A stretch of 64,000 nucleotides of DNA from Solitalea canadensis DSM 3403. GTDB taxonomy: Bacteria; Bacteroidota; Bacteroidia; Sphingobacteriales; Sphingobacteriaceae. Both the position numbers and the translations under genes were made by a program. The DNA is taken from assembly GCF_000242635.2 (NCBI RefSeq), contig NC_017770.1, positions 3,050,669 through 3,114,668 on the forward strand, read 5' to 3'. This document shows positions 29,978 through 37,320 of the stretch, in pieces; position 1 is the first letter of the stretch; each line of letters opens with the position of its first letter. Under the pieces are notes generated by a model, which worked only from the letters and a program-made list of their open reading frames with translations, had not been told where the DNA came from and did no database searches.

Positions 29978-31048
29978 ATGAATTTACAAGCTATTCAAAG
30001 TTCGGGGTATGAAGTTGTTTTTGGCGACGCTTCTGAACTGTTGATCGATTTTCTGCAAAAAAGAAATTATTCAAAAATATTTTTCCTTGTTGATACTAAT
30101 ACCAGCGAACATTGCTATCCGGGTATTGCTTTAAATATTGCAGGTGATATTCCTCATGATATTATTGAAATTGATAATGGGGAGGAAAACAAGAACATCG
30201 ACATATGTATTGGCATTTGGAAAATGTTGCTTGATTTTGGTGCCGACAGAAAAAGTCTTGTAATCAACTTAGGTGGCGGAGTAGTAACAGACATGGGAAG
30301 TTTTGCTGCTGCAACTTATAAACGAGGAATTGACTTTTTACAAATCCCTACTACCCTTCTTTCACAAGTTGATGCATCTGTCGGGGGTAAAACAGGAATC
30401 GATGTAGATGCGGTAAAAAATATGGTTGGTACCTTTACCAATCCACAGACCGTTATTATTGATCCATCTTTCTTGTTAACGCTTCCAAAAAGAGAAATTA
30501 TATCGGGTTTTGCAGAGATCATCAAGCATGGATTAATTGTAGATAAAGAGTACTTTAATGCGATTAAATTCATCATTTTTGATGATATAGACCCGCTTAT
30601 TATTCATCGTTCTGTAGCGATTAAAAATGAAGTGGTAACAGCTGATCCACACGAAAAAAATATACGTAAAAAATTAAACTACGGACATACGATCGGACAC
30701 GCTATTGAAAGCTATTCCTTACAGCATGACAAAAATCCTTTGTTACATGGTGAAGCCATCGCTATCGGAATGATTGCCGAAAGTTACTTGTCTCATAAAT
30801 TTGCAGACTTGCAACAAGAAGAATTAAATGAAATCTGCGATTTCATTTTATCCGTTTACCCAAGCTATAAGGTTGATGAAAATAGCTTTGATGACCTGCT
30901 TGCCTTCATGAAAAATGACAAAAAAAATGAGGACGATAAGATCAATTTCACTTTGCTCAATTCCATTGGAACCTCCACAATTAACTATTATTGCAGCGAA
31001 GAAGAGATATTAGAATCGATAAAATTCTATAATAATCTTATCAAATAA
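29978..31048 (+). CDS. aroB: 3-dehydroquinate synthase
   Basis: A 356-aa NAD- and metal-dependent enzyme forming the first ring of the shikimate pathway from DAHP. NAD-binding and core motifs are visible: NLGGGVVTDMGSFAAATYKRG, PTTLLSQVDASVGGKTGID and metal ligands in GFAEIIKHG, NYGHTIGHAIE and HGEAIAIGM. It precedes the attenuator-controlled aromatic operon by 252 bp and may be transcribed separately; proline dehydrogenase diverges upstream. Confidence 0.96.
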   Translation: MNLQAIQSSGYEVVFGDASELLIDFLQKRNYSKIFFLVDTNTSEHCYPGIALNIAGDIPHDIIEIDNGEENKNIDICIGIWKMLLDFGADRKSLVINLGGGVVTDMGSFAAATYKRGIDFLQIPTTLLSQVDASVGGKTGIDVDAVKNMVGTFTNPQTVIIDPSFLLTLPKREIISGFAEIIKHGLIVDKEYFNAIKFIIFDDIDPLIIHRSVAIKNEVVTADPHEKNIRKKLNYGHTIGHAIESYSLQHDKNPLLHGEAIAIGMIAESYLSHKFADLQQEELNEICDFILSVYPSYKVDENSFDDLLAFMKNDKKNEDDKINFTLLNSIGTSTINYYCSEEEILESIKFYNNLIK

Positions 31049-31099: not shown

Positions 31100-31130
31100 T
31101 TTGTTTTACACAAAAAGACTTTTACATTTG
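31100..31130 (+). promoter_or_regulatory. Promoter of the aromatic amino acid operon
   Basis: TTTG at 31100-31103, a 19-bp spacer and TACATTTG at 31123-31130: an exact Bacteroidota promoter. Transcription is expected near 31137, about 19 nt before the leader peptide. Confidence 0.8.
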
Positions 31131-31155
31131 TGCAAACGCAGACAAAGAAATAACA

Positions 31156-31221
31156 ATGATATTAAACAACGCATATTGGTTCTTCGGTTACTTTTACTTT
31201 TTTAGTGAAAGCCGGGACTAG
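31156..31221 (+). CDS. Aromatic-rich leader peptide (pheL-like, 21 aa)
   Basis: A short reading frame (ATG at 31156, TAG at 31219) encodes 21 residues of which codons 7-16 read YWFFGYFYFF: five Phe, three Tyr and one Trp in ten codons. It sits between a strong promoter and an intrinsic terminator in front of pheA. This is the layout of classical ribosome-mediated attenuation leaders such as E. coli pheL, trpL and hisL. Ribosome stalling on the aromatic codons when charged tRNA is scarce would report on Phe, Tyr and Trp supply. No similar peptide is annotated to my knowledge in this phylum context; function is inferred. Confidence 0.85.
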   Translation: MILNNAYWFFGYFYFFSESRD

Positions 31222-31286
31222 TATGTAGATACTTTAAGATATACTTACATAAAAAGTCCCGGCGCGAAAAGCGACGGGACTTTTTT
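31211..31286 (+). promoter_or_regulatory. Attenuator: antiterminator / terminator pair before pheA
   Basis: The terminator stem pairs 31251-31261 (AAAAAGTCCCG) with 31275-31285 (CGGGACTTTTT), with an inner CGC/GCG pair and a U-run. A mutually exclusive antiterminator pairs 31211-31219 (GCCGGGACT, the last codons and stop region of the leader peptide) with 31255-31263 (AGTCCCGGC), nine perfect base pairs. A ribosome stalled early in the aromatic run leaves 31211-31219 free to pair, preventing termination; a ribosome reaching the stop codon covers it, so the terminator forms. Confidence 0.85.
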
Positions 31287-31300
31287 GTTTACAATGTTTT

Positions 31301-32128
31301 ATGAGCAAAAAAAGAGTAGCAATTCAGGGTACAAGAGCGTCGTTTCATGAGGAAGCCGCTTACAAATATTTCGGTGAAGACATTGAAATTGTGGAGTGTG
31401 TGACCTTTAAGCAAACATGCGAAGCTATTAAGAAAGGAACTGCTGATTATGCAGTTATGGCAATTGAAAACTCAATTGCGGGCAGTTTGTTACCTAATTA
31501 TGCATTGCTGCAAGAGTTTAACTTCCCTATTATCGGTGAGGTTTACTTACACATTCAGCTGCATTTGCTGGCATTACCGGGTGTAAAATTTGAAGATATC
31601 AAATACGTTCATTCACACCCTATTGCGATTCGCCAGTGCAATGATTTTTTTGAAGACTTCCCTCATTTACAAGTTTTAGAAAAAACCGATACGGCAGCAT
31701 GCGCAAAAAATATCAGAGAAAACAACCTGACAGACACAGTAGCCATCGCAAACCTAACGGCAGCTAAAATGTATGATCTGCAGGTGCTTGAGCGTAGAAT
31801 AGAAACTAACAAAAAGAATTTCACCCGATTCCTGATTCTTGCAAATGAAGCAGTTGAATCATCCAAAAACAATAAAGCTTCAATTTGCTTTCAGGTTGGC
31901 AATACAATCGGATCATTAGCTAAGGTGTTGAACATTTTTGTTGAAAACAACATCAACTTAACCAAGATTCAATCAATGCCAATCATCGGAAAACCAAACG
32001 ATTACAATTTCTACGTAGATTTAGAATGGGGTAAGGAAAGTGATTATGACCACTGTATGCGTAAGCTATTAAAAGCAGTTGTCAATTTAGCCGTAATGGG
32101 TGAATACCTGAAGAATCCGATGAAATAA
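31301..32128 (+). CDS. pheA: Prephenate dehydratase with ACT domain
   Basis: A 275-aa stand-alone prephenate dehydratase producing phenylpyruvate. Catalytic-domain motifs include VAIQGTRASFHEEAA, MAIENSIAGSLLPNYALL and NFTRFLIL (TRF motif), followed by a C-terminal ACT domain (from about residue 195). The usual ESRP phenylalanine-binding motif of the ACT domain reads QSMP here (residues 224-227). No chorismate mutase domain is attached; that activity is in the next gene. The ATG at 31301 is 15 nt after the attenuator's U-run, so this gene is the first target of attenuation. Confidence 0.95.
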   Translation: MSKKRVAIQGTRASFHEEAAYKYFGEDIEIVECVTFKQTCEAIKKGTADYAVMAIENSIAGSLLPNYALLQEFNFPIIGEVYLHIQLHLLALPGVKFEDIKYVHSHPIAIRQCNDFFEDFPHLQVLEKTDTAACAKNIRENNLTDTVAIANLTAAKMYDLQVLERRIETNKKNFTRFLILANEAVESSKNNKASICFQVGNTIGSLAKVLNIFVENNINLTKIQSMPIIGKPNDYNFYVDLEWGKESDYDHCMRKLLKAVVNLAVMGEYLKNPMK

Positions 32129-32195: not shown

Positions 32196-33299
32196 ATGAA
32201 AGCATTCGATGTACTTCCATTAAACGAATGGTTCCCAGGCGGTAACGAGCCATTAATAATTGCCGGACCATGCAGCGCCGAGAGCGAAGACCAGGTTATG
32301 GCTACTGCACGTGAATTAAAGAAAACCGGTAAGGTTCGCGTTTATCGTGCAGGCATTTGGAAACCACGTACTCGTCCGGGTGAATTTGAAGGGCACGGTG
32401 CTGAAGCTTTGAAATGGTTACAACGCGTTAAAGAAGAAACAGGTTTTCCTGTTACTTGTGAAGTTGCCACTGCAAAACACGTTGAAGAATCATTAGAAGC
32501 AGGTGTTGATATTCTTTGGGTTGGTGCACGCACAACAGTTAACCCTTTTTCAGTACAGGAAATTGCTGATGCTTTAAAAGGTGTTGACATTCCGGTTATG
32601 ATCAAAAACCCAGTAAACCCTGATCTTTCTTTATGGATCGGTGGCATTGAACGTTTATACCGTGCTGGCATTAATAAATTGGTTGCTATTCACCGCGGAT
32701 TTTCTTCATTCGAAAAATCAGCTTTCCGTAATGAACCAATGTGGGAAATGGCGATCAACCTAAAAACTCAACACCCTGAGTTGCCTATTATCGTTGACCC
32801 AAGTCACATTTGTGGTAATCGCGAATTGCTTCCATATATTTCACAAAAAGCGATGGACTTAGATATGCAAGGTTTAATGATCGAAAGTCATATTAACCCT
32901 GCAACTGCTTGGACCGATGCAAAACAACAAGTTACGCCAGAAGCATTAGCTCAATTAGTTGGCAACCTTACTTTGCGTAAACCTGAATCACAAAACGTGG
33001 AGTTTGTTAGCAAATTGGAGCAATTACGTCAGAATATTGACAAATTGGATGATCAGATTATCCAAAAAATGGCTGAACGTATGCAAATCGTTGAAAAGAT
33101 TGGTGAGTATAAACGTGATAATGATGTAACAATCCTTCAGGTTAACCGTTGGGAAGAAATCATGGAGAAACGTACTTCATTTGCAAAAGCATTAAACTTA
33201 AGTGAAGCCTTTACTCACCGCTTATTAGATCTTATCCACAGCGAATCAATTCGTCGCCAAACTGAGATCATGAATACAAAACCGGTTGAACACGCATAA
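32196..33299 (+). CDS. Bifunctional DAHP synthase / chorismate mutase (type II CM)
   Basis: A 367-aa fusion. Residues ~1-262 are a type I-beta 3-deoxy-7-phosphoheptulonate synthase (IIAGPCSAES, KPRTRPGEFEGHG, VGARTTVNPF, DPSHICGNRELL), which condenses PEP and erythrose 4-phosphate. Residues ~270-367 are an AroQ-type chorismate mutase (LEQLRQNIDKLDDQII, IGEYKRDNDVTIL). The mutase domain commonly provides allosteric control of the synthase. The gene is second in the attenuated operon, 67 bp after pheA, and is followed by element D and aroA. tyrA and an aromatic aminotransferase, often in this operon in Bacteroidota, are not present here. Confidence 0.95.
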   Translation: MKAFDVLPLNEWFPGGNEPLIIAGPCSAESEDQVMATARELKKTGKVRVYRAGIWKPRTRPGEFEGHGAEALKWLQRVKEETGFPVTCEVATAKHVEESLEAGVDILWVGARTTVNPFSVQEIADALKGVDIPVMIKNPVNPDLSLWIGGIERLYRAGINKLVAIHRGFSSFEKSAFRNEPMWEMAINLKTQHPELPIIVDPSHICGNRELLPYISQKAMDLDMQGLMIESHINPATAWTDAKQQVTPEALAQLVGNLTLRKPESQNVEFVSKLEQLRQNIDKLDDQIIQKMAERMQIVEKIGEYKRDNDVTILQVNRWEEIMEKRTSFAKALNLSEAFTHRLLDLIHSESIRRQTEIMNTKPVEHA

Positions 33300-33313: not shown

Positions 33314-33360
33314 TAGTTCATGGATCATGGTTTCAAGGTAGAACTATGATCTATGAACTA
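33314..33360. repeat. Inverted repeat with 7-nt phasing (element D) upstream of aroA
   Basis: A 19-bp stem pairs 33314-33332 (TAGTTCATGGATCATGGTT) with 33342-33360, allowing two G-U pairs, around a 9-nt loop. The arms contain TCATGGA/TCATGGT and TATGATC/TATGAAC-like 7-nt units; further units continue to 33375. It lies within the aro operon, 5' of the aroA ATG, so it could cut or modulate the transcript. Confidence 0.7.
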
Positions 33361-33378
33361 TCAACCATTAACTATAAC

Positions 33379-34635
33379 ATGAACATTCAAATTAAAGCTT
33401 CAACCAAAAACATAAATGGTGAAATAATTCTTCCGGGATCAAAAAGCGAAAGTAACAGGGCTTTAATTATGAGGGCATTGTGTAAACAACCTTTCGAAAT
33501 AAAAAATCTTTCGGTTGCCGACGACACTGTTACATTAGATCACCTTCTTTCCACACAAATACTTTCTTCTTCTCACAATAAAGCAACAATAGATGTAGGG
33601 CCAGCCGGAACCGCTATGCGTTTTCTTACTGCATTTTTAGCGGTAACTCCGGGTGAGTGGTTATTAACAGGAACTGCTCGCATGTTAGAGCGCCCAATTA
33701 AACTTTTAGTTGATGCGCTGCAAGAGCTCGGAGCTGATATTGAATTTGCTGGTAACGAAGGCTTCCCTCCTTTGAAAATTAGAGGTAAAGACTTAAAGCT
33801 GACGAATGAAATTGCTATTGATGGAAGTGTAAGTAGTCAGTACATTTCAGCATTATTGATGATTGCTCCTACCCTGCCTCAGGGTTTGATCCTGAATTTG
33901 ACTGGTGTTGTTGCTTCAAGGCCTTATATTGAAATGACGCTGGCTATGATGGCTGAATTAGGCATTGAGCATACTTGGTCGGAAAACACAATCATTATAG
34001 AAAAACAGGATTACACATCGAATGATCTGTTCATTGAACCAGATTGGAGCGGCTCGTCATATTGGTATTCATTAGCGGCATTATCTGATAAAGCGGATAT
34101 CAAACTTACCGGGCTAAAAACAAATAGTCTGCAAGGAGATAGTGTAATTTCGGGAATGATGGAAAACTTTGGTGTAAAAACTGATTTCCTAAAAGATGGA
34201 ATTCGCCTGTCAAAAGTATCTTCCACCGTAACTATTAATTTCATTGATTTTGAGCACTGTCCGGATATTGCACAGACTTTAGCTGTAATTTGTGCAGGGT
34301 TAAACCATAATTGTACATTTACAGGACTTGAAAGCTTAAAAATTAAAGAAACCGACCGTGTTGCTGCTTTACAAAACGAATTGGGAAAATTTGGAGTGAC
34401 GATAAAGCAAGATGGCCTGAATTATCAGTTGGATTGCTCAGGTAGTACAATTGGCAAATCCGACGATGCAGAACCAGTATTTATTAATACTTATCATGAT
34501 CATCGGATGGCAATGGCCTTTGCTCCTTTAACGTTAAAAGTTGATCAACTTGAAATTGAAGATCCTAAAGTAACGGGTAAATCGTATCCTCATTTTTGGG
34601 ATGATTTAGATAAAGTAGGAATTCATCAGATTTGA
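33379..34635 (+). CDS. aroA: 3-phosphoshikimate 1-carboxyvinyltransferase (EPSP synthase)
   Basis: A 418-aa enzyme that joins PEP to shikimate 3-phosphate. Motifs include LPGSKSESNRALIMRAL and VGPAGTAMRFL (residues 73-83), plus the KETDR and DHRMAMAFAPL segments. The canonical GNAGTAMRPL loop of class I enzymes is altered: the Asn is Pro75 and the Pro equivalent to E. coli Pro101 is Phe82. The ATG at 33379 is used; the ATG at 33346 lies inside element D. It is third in the attenuated operon. Start and end are both next to 7-nt repeats (elements D and E). Confidence 0.94.
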   Translation: MNIQIKASTKNINGEIILPGSKSESNRALIMRALCKQPFEIKNLSVADDTVTLDHLLSTQILSSSHNKATIDVGPAGTAMRFLTAFLAVTPGEWLLTGTARMLERPIKLLVDALQELGADIEFAGNEGFPPLKIRGKDLKLTNEIAIDGSVSSQYISALLMIAPTLPQGLILNLTGVVASRPYIEMTLAMMAELGIEHTWSENTIIIEKQDYTSNDLFIEPDWSGSSYWYSLAALSDKADIKLTGLKTNSLQGDSVISGMMENFGVKTDFLKDGIRLSKVSSTVTINFIDFEHCPDIAQTLAVICAGLNHNCTFTGLESLKIKETDRVAALQNELGKFGVTIKQDGLNYQLDCSGSTIGKSDDAEPVFINTYHDHRMAMAFAPLTLKVDQLEIEDPKVTGKSYPHFWDDLDKVGIHQI

Positions 34636-34745: not shown

Positions 34746-35819
34746 ATGGCTGGAAATACTTTTGGAGAAGCATTCAGAATAACGACTTTCGGCGAGTCGC
34801 ATGGCAAAGCTATAGGAGTTATCATTGATGGTTGTCCTGCAGGTTTGGAAATTGACCTTGAGTTTGTTCAATCTGAATTAGATCGGCGTAAACCCGGACA
34901 ATCAAAAATAACTACCCAGCGTAAAGAATCGGATATCGCACAGTTATTGTCTGGAGTTTTTGAAGGACAATCGACAGGCACTCCGATCACTTTTTTAATT
35001 CCGAATGAAGATCAACGTTCAAAAGACTACGATCATAATGTAGGCCCATTTCGACCTTCACATGCCGATTATACCTATCAGGCAAAATATGGCATCAGAG
35101 ATCACCGTGGTGGGGGGCGTTCATCGGCGCGTGAAACTGCAGCCAGAGTAGCTGCCGGAGCTGTTGCTAAATTATTTCTGAAACAGACAGCTGGCATTGA
35201 GATAACTGCTTATGTAAGTGCAGTCGGTACTATGAAAGTTGAAAAACCTTACACTGAGCTGGATCTTTCAACTACCGAAAACAATATTTTGCGCTGTGCT
35301 GATCCTGAAAAGGCAGAAGAAATGATCGCTTATATTGACAGTGTAAGAAAGGCAGGTGATACCGTTGGTGGTATTATTACCTGTATCGCCAAAAAAGTTC
35401 CGGTTGGGTTAGGCGAACCTGTTTTTGATAAACTGCACGCCGACTTAGGAAAAGCCATGTTATGCATTAATGCTGTACATGGTTTTGAATATGGATCAGG
35501 ATTTGAAGGAGCTACCATGCTAGGTTCTCAGCATAACGATCTTTTTGAAACCGACTTCTCCACCCGGACCAACAACTCAGGAGGTGTTCAGGGAGGAATT
35601 TCAAATGGTCAGGATATTTACTTCAGAGTAGCATTTAAACCTGTTGCAACCATTATGCAAGGACAGGAAACAGTAGATAAAGAGGGGAATAAAGTAGAAC
35701 TGCATGGAAAAGGTCGACATGACCCTTGTGTAGTTCCGCGTGCCGTTCCTATTGTTGAATCAATGGCGGCACTTGTTTTAGCTGATCATTTCCTTCGAAA
35801 TAAAAATGCAAAGATTTAG
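34746..35819 (+). CDS. aroC: Chorismate synthase
   Basis: A 357-aa FMNH2-dependent enzyme, last step to chorismate. Signatures include [32 protein letters not shown] and [21 protein letters not shown]. Length is typical. It closes the pheA-aroG/aroQ-aroA-aroC operon and is followed immediately by a terminator. Confidence 0.97.
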
Positions 35820-35885: not shown

Positions 35886-35893
35886 TATTTTTG
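35886..35893 (+). promoter_or_regulatory. -7 promoter box (TATTTTTG) of the first porin-like gene
   Basis: Exact TAnnTTTG box 22 bp upstream of the ATG at 35915. An in-frame TTG within the box was rejected as start. Confidence 0.5.
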
Positions 35894-35914
35894 CGCCTCA
35901 TCAAAATTCAAAAA

Positions 35915-36490
35915 ATGAAGAAACTCTACTTTTTAATTATCTGCCTATTAACTGCAGGAACTTCAATGGCACAGAAGGCTCAGTTTGGTTTAAAATTGGG
36001 TGCGAACTTCGCGAACCAACATGCAACCTATCAAAATTTAAGTGCGAATGGATCTACACTCACCAGCATTTACCTAGGTGGGTTTGTAAATACAGGGATT
36101 GGAGGAAACTTTTCCTTTCAACCAGAATTCTTGATTTCATCACAAGGAACACAAACGAATTACAACGGTAACACAATTAAGTTTAATACAGTGAATATTA
36201 ACATTCCGTTGATGATTAAAGTAAACGCAACAGAAGGCCTTAATTTTGAAGCAGGACCACAGTTAGGTTTTTTAGTTAGTGCGAAAGCAAGAAATAAAGG
36301 AAACTCCATTGACATTGCAGATGGTTACAATACTGTTGATTTGGGTATAAATGCTGGAGTTGAGTATGTATTCCCTAGCGGTTTCCTTTTAGGCCTCCGT
36401 TATTCACACGGTATCACGGATATTCTTAAAGACGATGAAGCTACAACGACTAACAGAGTTATTTTATTAGGAATTGGTTATAGATTCTAA
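35915..36490 (+). CDS. PorT-like / OmpA-like outer-membrane beta-barrel protein 1
   Basis: A 191-aa barrel protein with signal peptide (MAQ cleavage near residue 21), beginning FGLKLGANFANQ after cleavage and ending LLGIGYRF, a C-terminal aromatic typical of BAM substrates. The segments GGFVNTGIGGNFSFQPEFLISSQG and EAGPQLGFLVSAKAR match the PorT-type small barrel family. A paralogue follows 147 bp downstream. Function unknown, possibly a stress or envelope porin. Start is the ATG at 35915. Confidence 0.8.
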   Translation: MKKLYFLIICLLTAGTSMAQKAQFGLKLGANFANQHATYQNLSANGSTLTSIYLGGFVNTGIGGNFSFQPEFLISSQGTQTNYNGNTIKFNTVNINIPLMIKVNATEGLNFEAGPQLGFLVSAKARNKGNSIDIADGYNTVDLGINAGVEYVFPSGFLLGLRYSHGITDILKDDEATTTNRVILLGIGYRF

Positions 36491-36515
36491 AATCTCTAAT
36501 TATTTAAATAAGACA

Positions 36516-36544
36516 AAGAAAGAGCCATTCACCGGCTCTTTCTT
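36516..36544 (+). terminator. Hairpin terminator after the first porin-like gene
   Basis: Perfect 11-bp stem (36516-36526 with 36534-36544), 7-nt loop; only a short T-rich tail follows. Between the two paralogous barrel genes. Confidence 0.7.
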
Positions 36545-36573
36545 ATTAAGTAAATGTACTTAATATACAATAC

Positions 36574-36608
36574 CTTGTTATTAACTAATAATTATTGTTT
36601 TATATTTG
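36574..36608 (+). promoter_or_regulatory. Promoter of the second porin-like gene
   Basis: Exact -7 box TATATTTG at 36601-36608, with a weak -33 element CTTG at 36574-36577 (23-bp spacer). The ATG follows at 36638. Confidence 0.5.
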
Positions 36609-36637
36609 AACCATCAACGTAAAACAAAAAATCGAAA

Positions 36638-37267
36638 ATGAAAAAATTCTACGTATTAATTGCTTCTGTAATGATTGCAGGTGCAGCTATGGCTCAATCA
36701 CCAGTAAAATTTGGTTTAAAAGCTGGTGGTAACTTTGCTAACATCAACACATCAGTAAGTGGATTTGGTTCTTCAGTTTCACAAAGTGCAAGCTCTGTAA
36801 CAAGTTTCTATGTAGGTGGTTTAGCAACTATTCCACTGGGTACAAAACTTTCTTTCCAACCTGAGTTATTATTATCATCTCAAGGAGCAAAAGGAGAATC
36901 TTTTGACCTTGACGGCAATAGCTATGAAGGAAAATCAAGTACATTGTATTTAAATTTACCATTAATGGTTAGATATAATATTGTAGCTGGCTTACATGGA
37001 GAATTAGGTCCTCAAGTTGGTTTTTTATTAAGTGCTAAAGATAAATTTCAAGGAGAATCTTTTGATAGCAAAGATGGCTACAAAAGCTTAGACTTTGGCG
37101 TAAATGTTGGCGCTGAATATCAATTCCCTATGGGCTTATTTTTAAATGCACGTTATAACTGGGGATTATCAAACATTGCTAAAGGTATGGAAGAAGCAGA
37201 AGACTTCGGTGTTAGTGCAAAAGTAACTAACCGCGTATTATCTTTAGGTTTAGGTTTCAGATTCTAA
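36638..37267 (+). CDS. PorT-like / OmpA-like outer-membrane beta-barrel protein 2
   Basis: A 209-aa paralogue of the preceding gene: signal peptide (MAQ), KFGLKAGGNFANI, then FQPELLLSSQGAKG, GELGPQVGFLLSAKDK and a C-terminal LSLGLGFRF. It has a longer acidic loop region than its neighbour. Each copy has its own promoter and terminator, so they can be regulated separately. Function unknown. Confidence 0.8.
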   Translation: MKKFYVLIASVMIAGAAMAQSPVKFGLKAGGNFANINTSVSGFGSSVSQSASSVTSFYVGGLATIPLGTKLSFQPELLLSSQGAKGESFDLDGNSYEGKSSTLYLNLPLMVRYNIVAGLHGELGPQVGFLLSAKDKFQGESFDSKDGYKSLDFGVNVGAEYQFPMGLFLNARYNWGLSNIAKGMEEAEDFGVSAKVTNRVLSLGLGFRF

Positions 37268-37289: not shown

Positions 37290-37320
37290 AAAAAGACTGC
37301 TCAATGAGCAGTCTTTTTTT
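37290..37320 (+). terminator. Terminator after the second porin-like gene
   Basis: 13-bp perfect stem AAAAAGACTGCTC / GAGCAGTCTTTTT around AAT, followed by T-run. Confidence 0.9.

Follow-up and report, generated by a model that had tools for sequence, protein, structure and literature searches.

In the complete 5.2-Mb genome of Solitalea canadensis, the stretch of 64,000 nucleotides that we analysed (the window) contains four aromatic biosynthesis genes, pheA, aroG/aroQ, aroA and aroC, preceded by a short reading frame with a run of aromatic codons (Table 1). They are the target operon named in an earlier note on this DNA, and the assignments agree with NCBIfam matches, which exceed the curated cut-offs for aroA and aroC and fall under them for pheA and aroG/aroQ. 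The product of the latter matches DAHP synthase (residues 10-258, E 4.8e-55) and chorismate mutase (residues 274-355, E 2.9e-13). The four genes are separated by gaps of 67, 46 and 110 nt. No terminator-like sites were found on the plus strand inside the pheA-aroC stretch, and no plus-strand sites of the form TTG-N17-23-TAnnTTTG were found from the leader promoter to position 36600. The sequence suggests that pheA-aroG/Q-aroA-aroC are co-transcribed. The tyrA gene of the same genome sits elsewhere, and no leader of its own was seen by eye in about 430 nt. Past aroC lie two adjacent ORFs (35891-37267) that look alike by eye; the first has an outer-membrane beta-barrel family match under the cut-off, and a strong terminator-like hairpin (37290-37318) follows the second.

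Table 1. Features of the pheA leader and of the neighbouring genes in S. canadensis; positions are those of the window.
Feature	Position	Strand	Remarks
aroB	ends 31048	+	upstream of the leader, same strand
Promoter, Bacteroidota type, TTG-N19-TACATTTG	31101-31130	+	TTG 31101-31103, 19 nt, TACATTTG 31123-31130; predicted
Leader ORF, MILNNAYWFFGYFYFFSESRD and stop codon	31156-31221	+	21 codons; conserved in Sphingobacteriaceae
Strand 1, 5' half of the protector hairpin	31171-31198	+	overlaps the sensor codons, most of the aromatic run; predicted
Sensor codons, YWFFGYFYFF	31174-31203	+	9/10 codons aromatic (5 Phe, 3 Tyr, 1 Trp, 1 Gly)
3' half of the protector hairpin	31204-31226	+	holds strand 2 and the stop codon; predicted
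Strand 2, 5' half of the antiterminator, GCCGGGACT	31211-31219	+	9 Watson-Crick pairs with 31255-31263
Intrinsic terminator	31251-31286	+	31251-31261 with 31275-31285 (11 bp), then TTTTTTG; predicted
Strand 3, 3' half of the antiterminator	31255-31263	+	overlaps the 5' arm of the terminator
pheA, prephenate dehydratase	31301-32128	+	NCBIfam NF008865, E 4.4e-57, under curated cut-off
aroG/aroQ, DAHP synthase fused to chorismate mutase	32196-33299	+	NCBIfam matches
aroA, EPSP synthase	33346-34635	+	TIGR01356, over cut-off
aroC, chorismate synthase	34746-35819	+	TIGR00033, over cut-off

The leader ORF has exactly the boundaries that the earlier note had given it. Only one other ORF of 8-45 codons on either strand of the window reaches seven aromatic codons in ten, compared with nine in the leader. 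PheA was sought in 150 genomes, and 78 of the 93 matches came from 91 Sphingobacteriaceae genomes. With the three weakest matches left out, we analysed 90 loci (78 from Sphingobacteriaceae and 12 more distant class loci). For each locus, the small ORF that scored best within 250 nt upstream of pheA was considered, with reverse complements and dinucleotide shuffles as controls. At least seven aromatic residues in ten were found in 77 of the 78 Sphingobacteriaceae loci, as compared to 0/78 reverse complements and 7/1560 shuffles, and at least six in all 78 (6/78 and 40/1560, respectively). The class loci had such ORFs in 6/12 and 7/12 cases at the same two thresholds.

A second set comprised 80 named loci, 77 of them usable (L134, L143 and L166 are short of upstream DNA). 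At seven in ten, 57/77 had a leader within 250 nt (3/77 reverse complements, 4/1540 shuffles), and at six in ten, 59/77 (10/77 and 35/1540). Within 330 nt, a leader with at least six aromatic residues in ten together with a terminator was present in 61/77, and 57/77 had in addition a strand 2 of at least 6 bp. The named loci were drawn by similarity to S. canadensis PheA and are not a fair census of the phylum. The family and named sets share at least four genomes (L091=L002, L092=L003, L095=L074, L096=L076), and hence are not independent. By NCBI order, the leader occurs in Sphingobacteriales (6/6), Cytophagales (17/17), Marinilabiliales (10/10), Bacteroidales (15/18), Saprospirales (5/12), Flavobacteriales (1/6) and unplaced Bacteroidota (7/7), and is absent from the single locus with no assigned phylum (0/1). 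It is therefore widespread without being universal. Relatives do carry the leader before pheA, where the earlier note had proposed to look for it.

The 13 Sphingobacteriaceae genomes lacking a PheA match are all at most 2.4 Mb long, several of them incomplete. When 91 genomes were searched with a model of the pheA leader trained on 77 Sphingobacteriaceae sequences (R1), the eight of these 13 covered by the profile search gave no strong leader match, the best having E 5.6e-4. It looks as if phenylalanine synthesis has been lost there along with its switch.

Sequence comparison indicates purifying selection on the aromatic run. Over 31 independent leader pairs, pN/pS was 0.18 in the run, 0.76 in the rest of the ORF and 0.40 for the ORF as a whole. 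Of the 224 gaps in the ORF part of the alignment, 209 have a length of 3 or 6 nt and a further 13 one of 5 nt, while the linker has gaps of every length. The short ORF, with its cognate regulatory codons in a row, is probably translated, judging by selection.

The promoter that the earlier note had placed before the leader recurs in relatives. In 66/78 Sphingobacteriaceae loci, as opposed to 9/1560 shuffles, the leader ATG is preceded within 85 nt by a TTG-N17-23-TAnnTTTG site, its second box mostly 15-18 nt from the ATG; the pattern was also found in 3/7 class loci and in 21/61 named loci (9/1220 shuffles). On the plus strand of S. canadensis between 28601 and 36600, the only copies are the leader promoter and a site at 30774. 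The expected transcription start is around 31135-31138, some 20 nt ahead of the leader ATG.

The DAHP synthase fusion follows pheA in all 78 Sphingobacteriaceae loci, and aroA and aroC come next in 6/6 named Sphingobacteriaceae. Outside the family the usual order is pheA, an aminotransferase-like gene (by eye), often tyrA, and then DAHP synthase. Named loci with a leader have a DAHP synthase gene on the locus in 52/61 cases and those without it in 3/16, a contrast that is weakened by contig ends and shared ancestry. The upstream side bears on a rival explanation, that the hairpin is the ordinary terminator of aroB and the ORF is due to chance. The gene is indeed upstream on the same strand, ending at 31048. 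However, a promoter-like site separates it from the hairpin, and aroB was found upstream (within a flank of at most 1.5 kb) in only 23/78 Sphingobacteriaceae loci, as against 78/78 for the leader and hairpin. Given also the purifying selection on the aromatic run, we find this explanation barely credible.

As for RNA structure, both alternative helices proposed in the earlier note consist of perfect reverse complements, nine pairs in the antiterminator and eleven in the terminator, the latter followed by a T run. The folding that it had suggested gives -49.3 kcal/mol for a 171-nt region compared with a shuffle mean of -29.3 (z = -5.76), none of 200 shuffles being as stable. In addition, the leader ORF is predicted to fold on itself into a protector hairpin, a feature absent from the note. 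This hairpin pairs 31171-31182 with 31215-31226 (12 pairs, G-U included) and 31185-31198 with 31204-31214. In the modelled fold the protector completes a classical three-hairpin attenuator.

A hairpin with a T-rich tail is predicted in all 78 Sphingobacteriaceae loci, and in 74/78 when a stricter scan with a 110 nt limit is applied. We examined pairing in an alignment of 77 of the 78 Sphingobacteriaceae leaders (A1; L078 was left out), with structures taken from the S. canadensis sequence. The terminator had 93.3% of cells paired, with 36 changed on both sides (7.1 in shuffles; 0/500 as high), and the inner protector 96.7%, with 21 changed on both sides (4.7; 0/500). For the outer protector the values were 85.1% and 34 (21.0; 2/500), and the number of its pairs changed on both sides was no higher than in shuffles (257/500). 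The antiterminator was paired in 91.6% of cells as opposed to 16.5-56.9% in slid versions. Its covariation inside the family is weak, with six cells changed on both sides, matched by 88/500 shuffles. A further helix in the antiterminator loop, seen in the Solitalea fold (31221-31227 with 31244-31250), had 44.1% of cells paired, which did not exceed slid versions, and was dropped.

From the sequences, the antiterminator appears to be better supported by the joint change of strands 2 and 3 between distant lineages than by covariation inside the family. Within each lineage group the strands pair with a score of 13-14.2. When strands of Sphingobacteriaceae or Cytophagales-type loci are combined with those of three Bacteroidales-type groups, in both directions, the score is 6.2-9.1. 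Cross-pairing of related groups persists (12.5-13.0 between Sphingobacteriaceae and Cytophagales-type, 6.1-13.4 among Bacteroidales-type), and the groups of this matrix were picked by eye with the sequences already seen. The antiterminator beat all 50 shuffles of the stretch behind the run in 56/78 Sphingobacteriaceae, 4/7 class, 11/20 Cytophagales-type and 18/33 other loci. A clear strand 2, and hence an antiterminator exclusive with the terminator, is present in 74/78 Sphingobacteriaceae loci, the remaining four having no clear strand 2.

The full-length transcript is predicted to prefer the protector with the terminator (-47.1 kcal/mol) over a fold with the antiterminator (-37.5 kcal/mol). 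In a transcript ending at 31270, the antiterminator is preferred at equilibrium, also when no ribosome is present (P 0.999). Therefore, default termination would have to depend on the co-transcriptional order of folding or on displacement by the terminator.

A structured leader before amino acid genes could also be a T-box or a metabolite riboswitch. Still, in a scan of the 64-kb window with Rfam 15, no family, whether leader, T-box or other, reached the gathering score, and the conserved structure is accounted for by the ORF and the alternative hairpins. We regard this possibility as negligible. A relaxed scan gave 19 sub-threshold matches that we judged to be due to chance, the best being ylbH, PyrR and Thr_leader (E 0.02-0.06, far under gathering). 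A match to BTnc231 was likewise weak (12.5 bits against 80.4).

The geometry of the leader is conserved in a particular way. Judging by the sequences, the better-kept quantity is how far strand 2 lies from the sensor codons, and the stop codon may fall before, on or after that strand. In Sphingobacteriaceae (74/78 loci), strand 2 begins on average 9.2 nt (sd 1.5, range 7-13) behind the last aromatic codon, whereas its start as measured from the end of the stop codon varies with sd 6.0, over a range of -23 to +4. The distance behind the last aromatic codon is 9.2 nt (sd 1.1) in 20/20 Cytophagales-type loci (L097-L115 and L117, some of which are unplaced Bacteroidota) and 8.4 nt (sd 1.7) in 5/12 class loci. 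It is 14.0 nt (sd 3.2) in 31/54 other named loci, 19 of the remainder being short or having no leader and four having a weak strand 2. In the Cytophagales-type loci the start of strand 2 precedes the end of the stop codon by 11-32 nt; since the stop is mostly well past strand 2, a terminating ribosome would mostly leave that strand uncovered, in contrast to the textbook scheme.

In order to model the effect of a ribosome, a footprint reaching 14 nt upstream and 12 nt downstream from the start of the A-site codon was masked, and the accessibility of strand 2 just before the synthesis of strand 3 was read out. The model assumes this footprint and equilibrium folding; footprints of 10 and 14 nt gave the same picture. 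Accessibility was adopted as the measure once the equilibrium probability of the antiterminator at 31270 had been seen, as the latter does not separate early codons and the ribosome-free case from the aromatic run. On the S. canadensis leader, strand 2 is predicted to be free with a probability of 0.01 without a ribosome, at most 0.02 for codons 1-4, 0.31 and 0.38 for codons 5-6, 0.63 for Tyr7, 0.85 for Trp8 and 0.82-0.93 for codons 9-13. The value then falls to 0.68 at Tyr14, 0.35 at Phe15, 0.09 at Phe16 and 0-0.11 beyond, being 0.0 for a ribosome at the stop codon. In the model, then, strand 2 is freed by a ribosome on the regulatory codons, except for the last codons of the run.

The same tendency is observed across the family, where mean accessibility is about 0.5-0.7 in the permissive stretch and 0.19 without a ribosome. 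In 74 loci (the four of 78 with a weak strand 2 were left out), 322/406 of the codons at which strand 2 is more than half free are aromatic, compared with 280/1153 of the remaining codons. These loci are related and hence not independent, so that a Fisher p value for the contrast has to be read with reserve. Put differently, 322/602 aromatic codons are permissive as against 84/957 others, and 280/602 aromatic codons are not. Aromatic codons rank above the others in all 74 loci (AUC >0.5, mean 0.89).

We interpret the locus as a ribosome-mediated transcription attenuator of the trp/phe type that senses scarce charged tRNA-Phe and tRNA-Tyr, and put the probability of this reading at roughly 0.9. 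It builds on the ORF, its codon make-up, the conserved helices, the geometry and the gene order, as given by sequence and comparison, and would add to them a transcription start, co-transcription, stalling, antitermination and an amino-acid response. As long as the leader is free of ribosomes, its ORF would fold as the protector, strand 2 would be hidden, and the terminator would form before pheA. With charged tRNA-Phe and tRNA-Tyr plentiful, a ribosome would reach the stop codon and cover strand 2, and the terminator would form again. If either charged tRNA is short, the ribosome would stall in the run, melting the protector and leaving strand 2 uncovered. The free strand 2 would then pair with strand 3, the terminator would be pre-empted, and pheA-aroG/Q-aroA-aroC would be transcribed. 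The target genes make the amino acids sensed in this mechanism. Similar-looking leaders with Trp codons before trp-like genes and with Thr/Ile codons before a thrA-like gene, in this genome and in relatives, also speak for it; the separate location of tyrA, where no such leader was seen by eye, speaks against it.

Stalling on empty tRNA is not the only way in which such a peptide might act. In TnaC, the ribosome is arrested through the nascent peptide in the exit tunnel, and free aromatic amino acids or another ligand might arrest the ribosome here in a similar manner. The peptide is conserved in Sphingobacteriaceae, with a G-Y-F-Y core in many members, in keeping with a nascent-peptide sensor. 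Between orders, however, it is mainly the aromatic character that persists (YWFFGYFYFF, RFYFSFYFYP, FFYNFYYFFF). Within the family the RNA of the Y-F-Y codons forms pairs with that of the S-K-S codons (96.7% of cells), and this can explain the conservation of both motifs. Moreover, a biosynthetic operon would be expected to respond to scarcity and not to excess. We consider the nascent-peptide sensor improbable and retain the attenuator that responds to charged tRNA.

The earlier note had proposed that one leader could sense all three aromatic amino acids. For phenylalanine and tyrosine this stands, as codons for both are present in every leader counted (78/78 Sphingobacteriaceae and 61/61 named), and sensing of both is strongly predicted. 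Tryptophan does not fit as a general rule. Its codon is found in 36/78 Sphingobacteriaceae leaders (a single codon in 35 of them) and in 16/61 named leaders, and its presence changes at least 14 times on the PheA tree of the 78 loci. Going by these counts, Trp sensing does not seem to be a general property of the leaders.

A narrower form of the attenuator explanation follows the same lines: only Phe and Tyr are sensed, and the Trp codon fills an aromatic position without having an effect of its own. The sporadic distribution just given speaks for this, as do the separate Trp leaders that serve the trp-like genes of the same genome. Against it, 28 of the 37 Trp codons share the second position of the run, all four Solitalea species (4/4) have a Trp codon in the leader, a modelled ribosome waiting at Trp8 frees strand 2 (0.85), and tryptophan too is fed by aroG/Q, aroA and aroC. 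We see the chances of the narrower form as evenly balanced. In Solitalea, tRNA-Trp shortage might act as a further stall signal; the Trp codon in all four species and its place in the modelled permissive stretch make Trp sensing there possible. A single leader of this kind offers a ready test of multivalent Phe, Tyr and Trp sensing.

Beyond S. canadensis, we lean towards a broader reading of the attenuator, as an unannotated element widespread in Bacteroidota. It would read Phe and Tyr jointly, with Trp gained and lost repeatedly, and gate both the terminal branch and the entry DAHP synthase. Its ruler would be the spacing between the last aromatic codon and the antiterminator strand, and not the stop, so the stop could drift to either side of that strand; this arrangement would be kept across orders while the RNA sequence is rewritten. 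If so, the leader gives a base-by-base prediction of how many Bacteroidota may control the entry into aromatic biosynthesis, and the drifting stop codon probes which features of the textbook attenuator geometry are truly needed.

The pheA leader is not the only candidate attenuator in these genomes. The Bacteroid-trp model (RF01692, gathering score 49 bits) has three matches in the S. canadensis genome, all of them sub-threshold, and the pheA leader is not among them. Two correspond to Trp leaders followed by a hairpin and a T run: MKQTVLNNNWWWRSITCIR before a trpD-like gene (by eye; L171, C1:1526157-1526284, 33.8 bits) and MNKINSNNFAWWRCNN before a trpE-like gene (by eye; L172, C1:4046456-4046592, 30.7 bits). 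As these leaders score below the threshold, the model seems too narrow for Sphingobacteriaceae. The matches of R1 at pheA in the training genomes are expected by construction. Among the matches listed, 14 weaker ones were inspected, and they include two Thr/Ile leaders, one Trp leader and one possible branched-chain leader; no aromatic leader was seen in the other 10. The Thr/Ile leaders (MIFNTSIITTIIITTG and onwards) have terminators and precede a thrA-like aspartokinase gene in two relatives (L205, G015:C2:604579-604733; L206, G036:C1:644717-644871). In a more distant relative, the Trp leader MKTYNKYWWQQSYLR stands before a trpE-like gene (L207, G121:C388:14335-14476). The small Ile/Val/Leu-rich ORF MKQNLYIISVVAVALSAD is followed by a terminator-like hairpin and an aminotransferase-like gene (L216, G013:C2:396098-396238), and is possibly a branched-chain leader. 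With Trp and Thr/Ile leaders beside the pheA leader, attenuation looks like a general habit of Sphingobacteriaceae. The alignment of the pheA leaders could seed an Rfam family.

Attenuation in Bacteroidetes is not a new idea, and the abstract of Vitreschak et al. 2004 reportedly counts them among the groups with candidate attenuators; that study may already mention one at pheA. The earlier note had supposed such leaders to be known mainly from Proteobacteria. This needs to be qualified: two papers already suggest attenuation for Bacteroidota, one listing the Bacteroid-trp RNA for Bacteroidetes with 'y' for both RNA and cis-regulation (PMC2864571) and the other speaking of 'strong clues' for leader-peptide attenuation of amino-acid operons in Flavobacterium psychrophilum (PMC9723704). 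Short ORFs of Bacteroides thetaiotaomicron are described as reminiscent of leader peptides (PMC7366714). The authors of a 2010 paper knew of no demonstration of leader-peptide systems beyond Proteobacteria and Actinobacteria, ermC excepted (PMC2965389), and a study of Actinobacteria found no Phe or Tyr systems of this kind there (PMC1262725). The open-licence literature, which leaves most subscription papers outside its coverage, yielded no description of an aromatic leader in Bacteroidota. The class of mechanism is thus old and has been hinted at in Bacteroidota before, and the aromatic leader itself matches no Rfam family.

Among the closest known systems are those of Stav et al. 2019 (PMC6429828), where, according to the legend of Fig. 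6, two candidate uORFs with F and Y codons are associated with shikimate genes; like the Solitalea leader, they tie Phe and Tyr codons to shikimate metabolism, and our element may or may not be one of them. Bacteroid-trp is likewise a cis-regulatory RNA of Bacteroidota, and two Trp leaders of the same genome match it weakly; unlike the pheA leader, the leaders that match it precede trp-like genes and carry WW or WWW codons. In the enterobacterial pheL attenuator, a short Phe-rich ORF with protector, antiterminator and terminator controls pheA. The Solitalea leader shares, on prediction, the short Phe-rich ORF, the three-hairpin layout and the control of pheA, but differs in mixing Phe with Tyr (and, in part of the family, Trp) and in a cluster that adds DAHP synthase and common-pathway genes. 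In the multivalent ilv/leu attenuators, a single leader holds codons for more than one end product of a common pathway. The pheA leader similarly combines several end products, aromatic here and branched-chain there, and, if our interpretation is true, would be the aromatic counterpart of the multivalent branched-chain attenuators.
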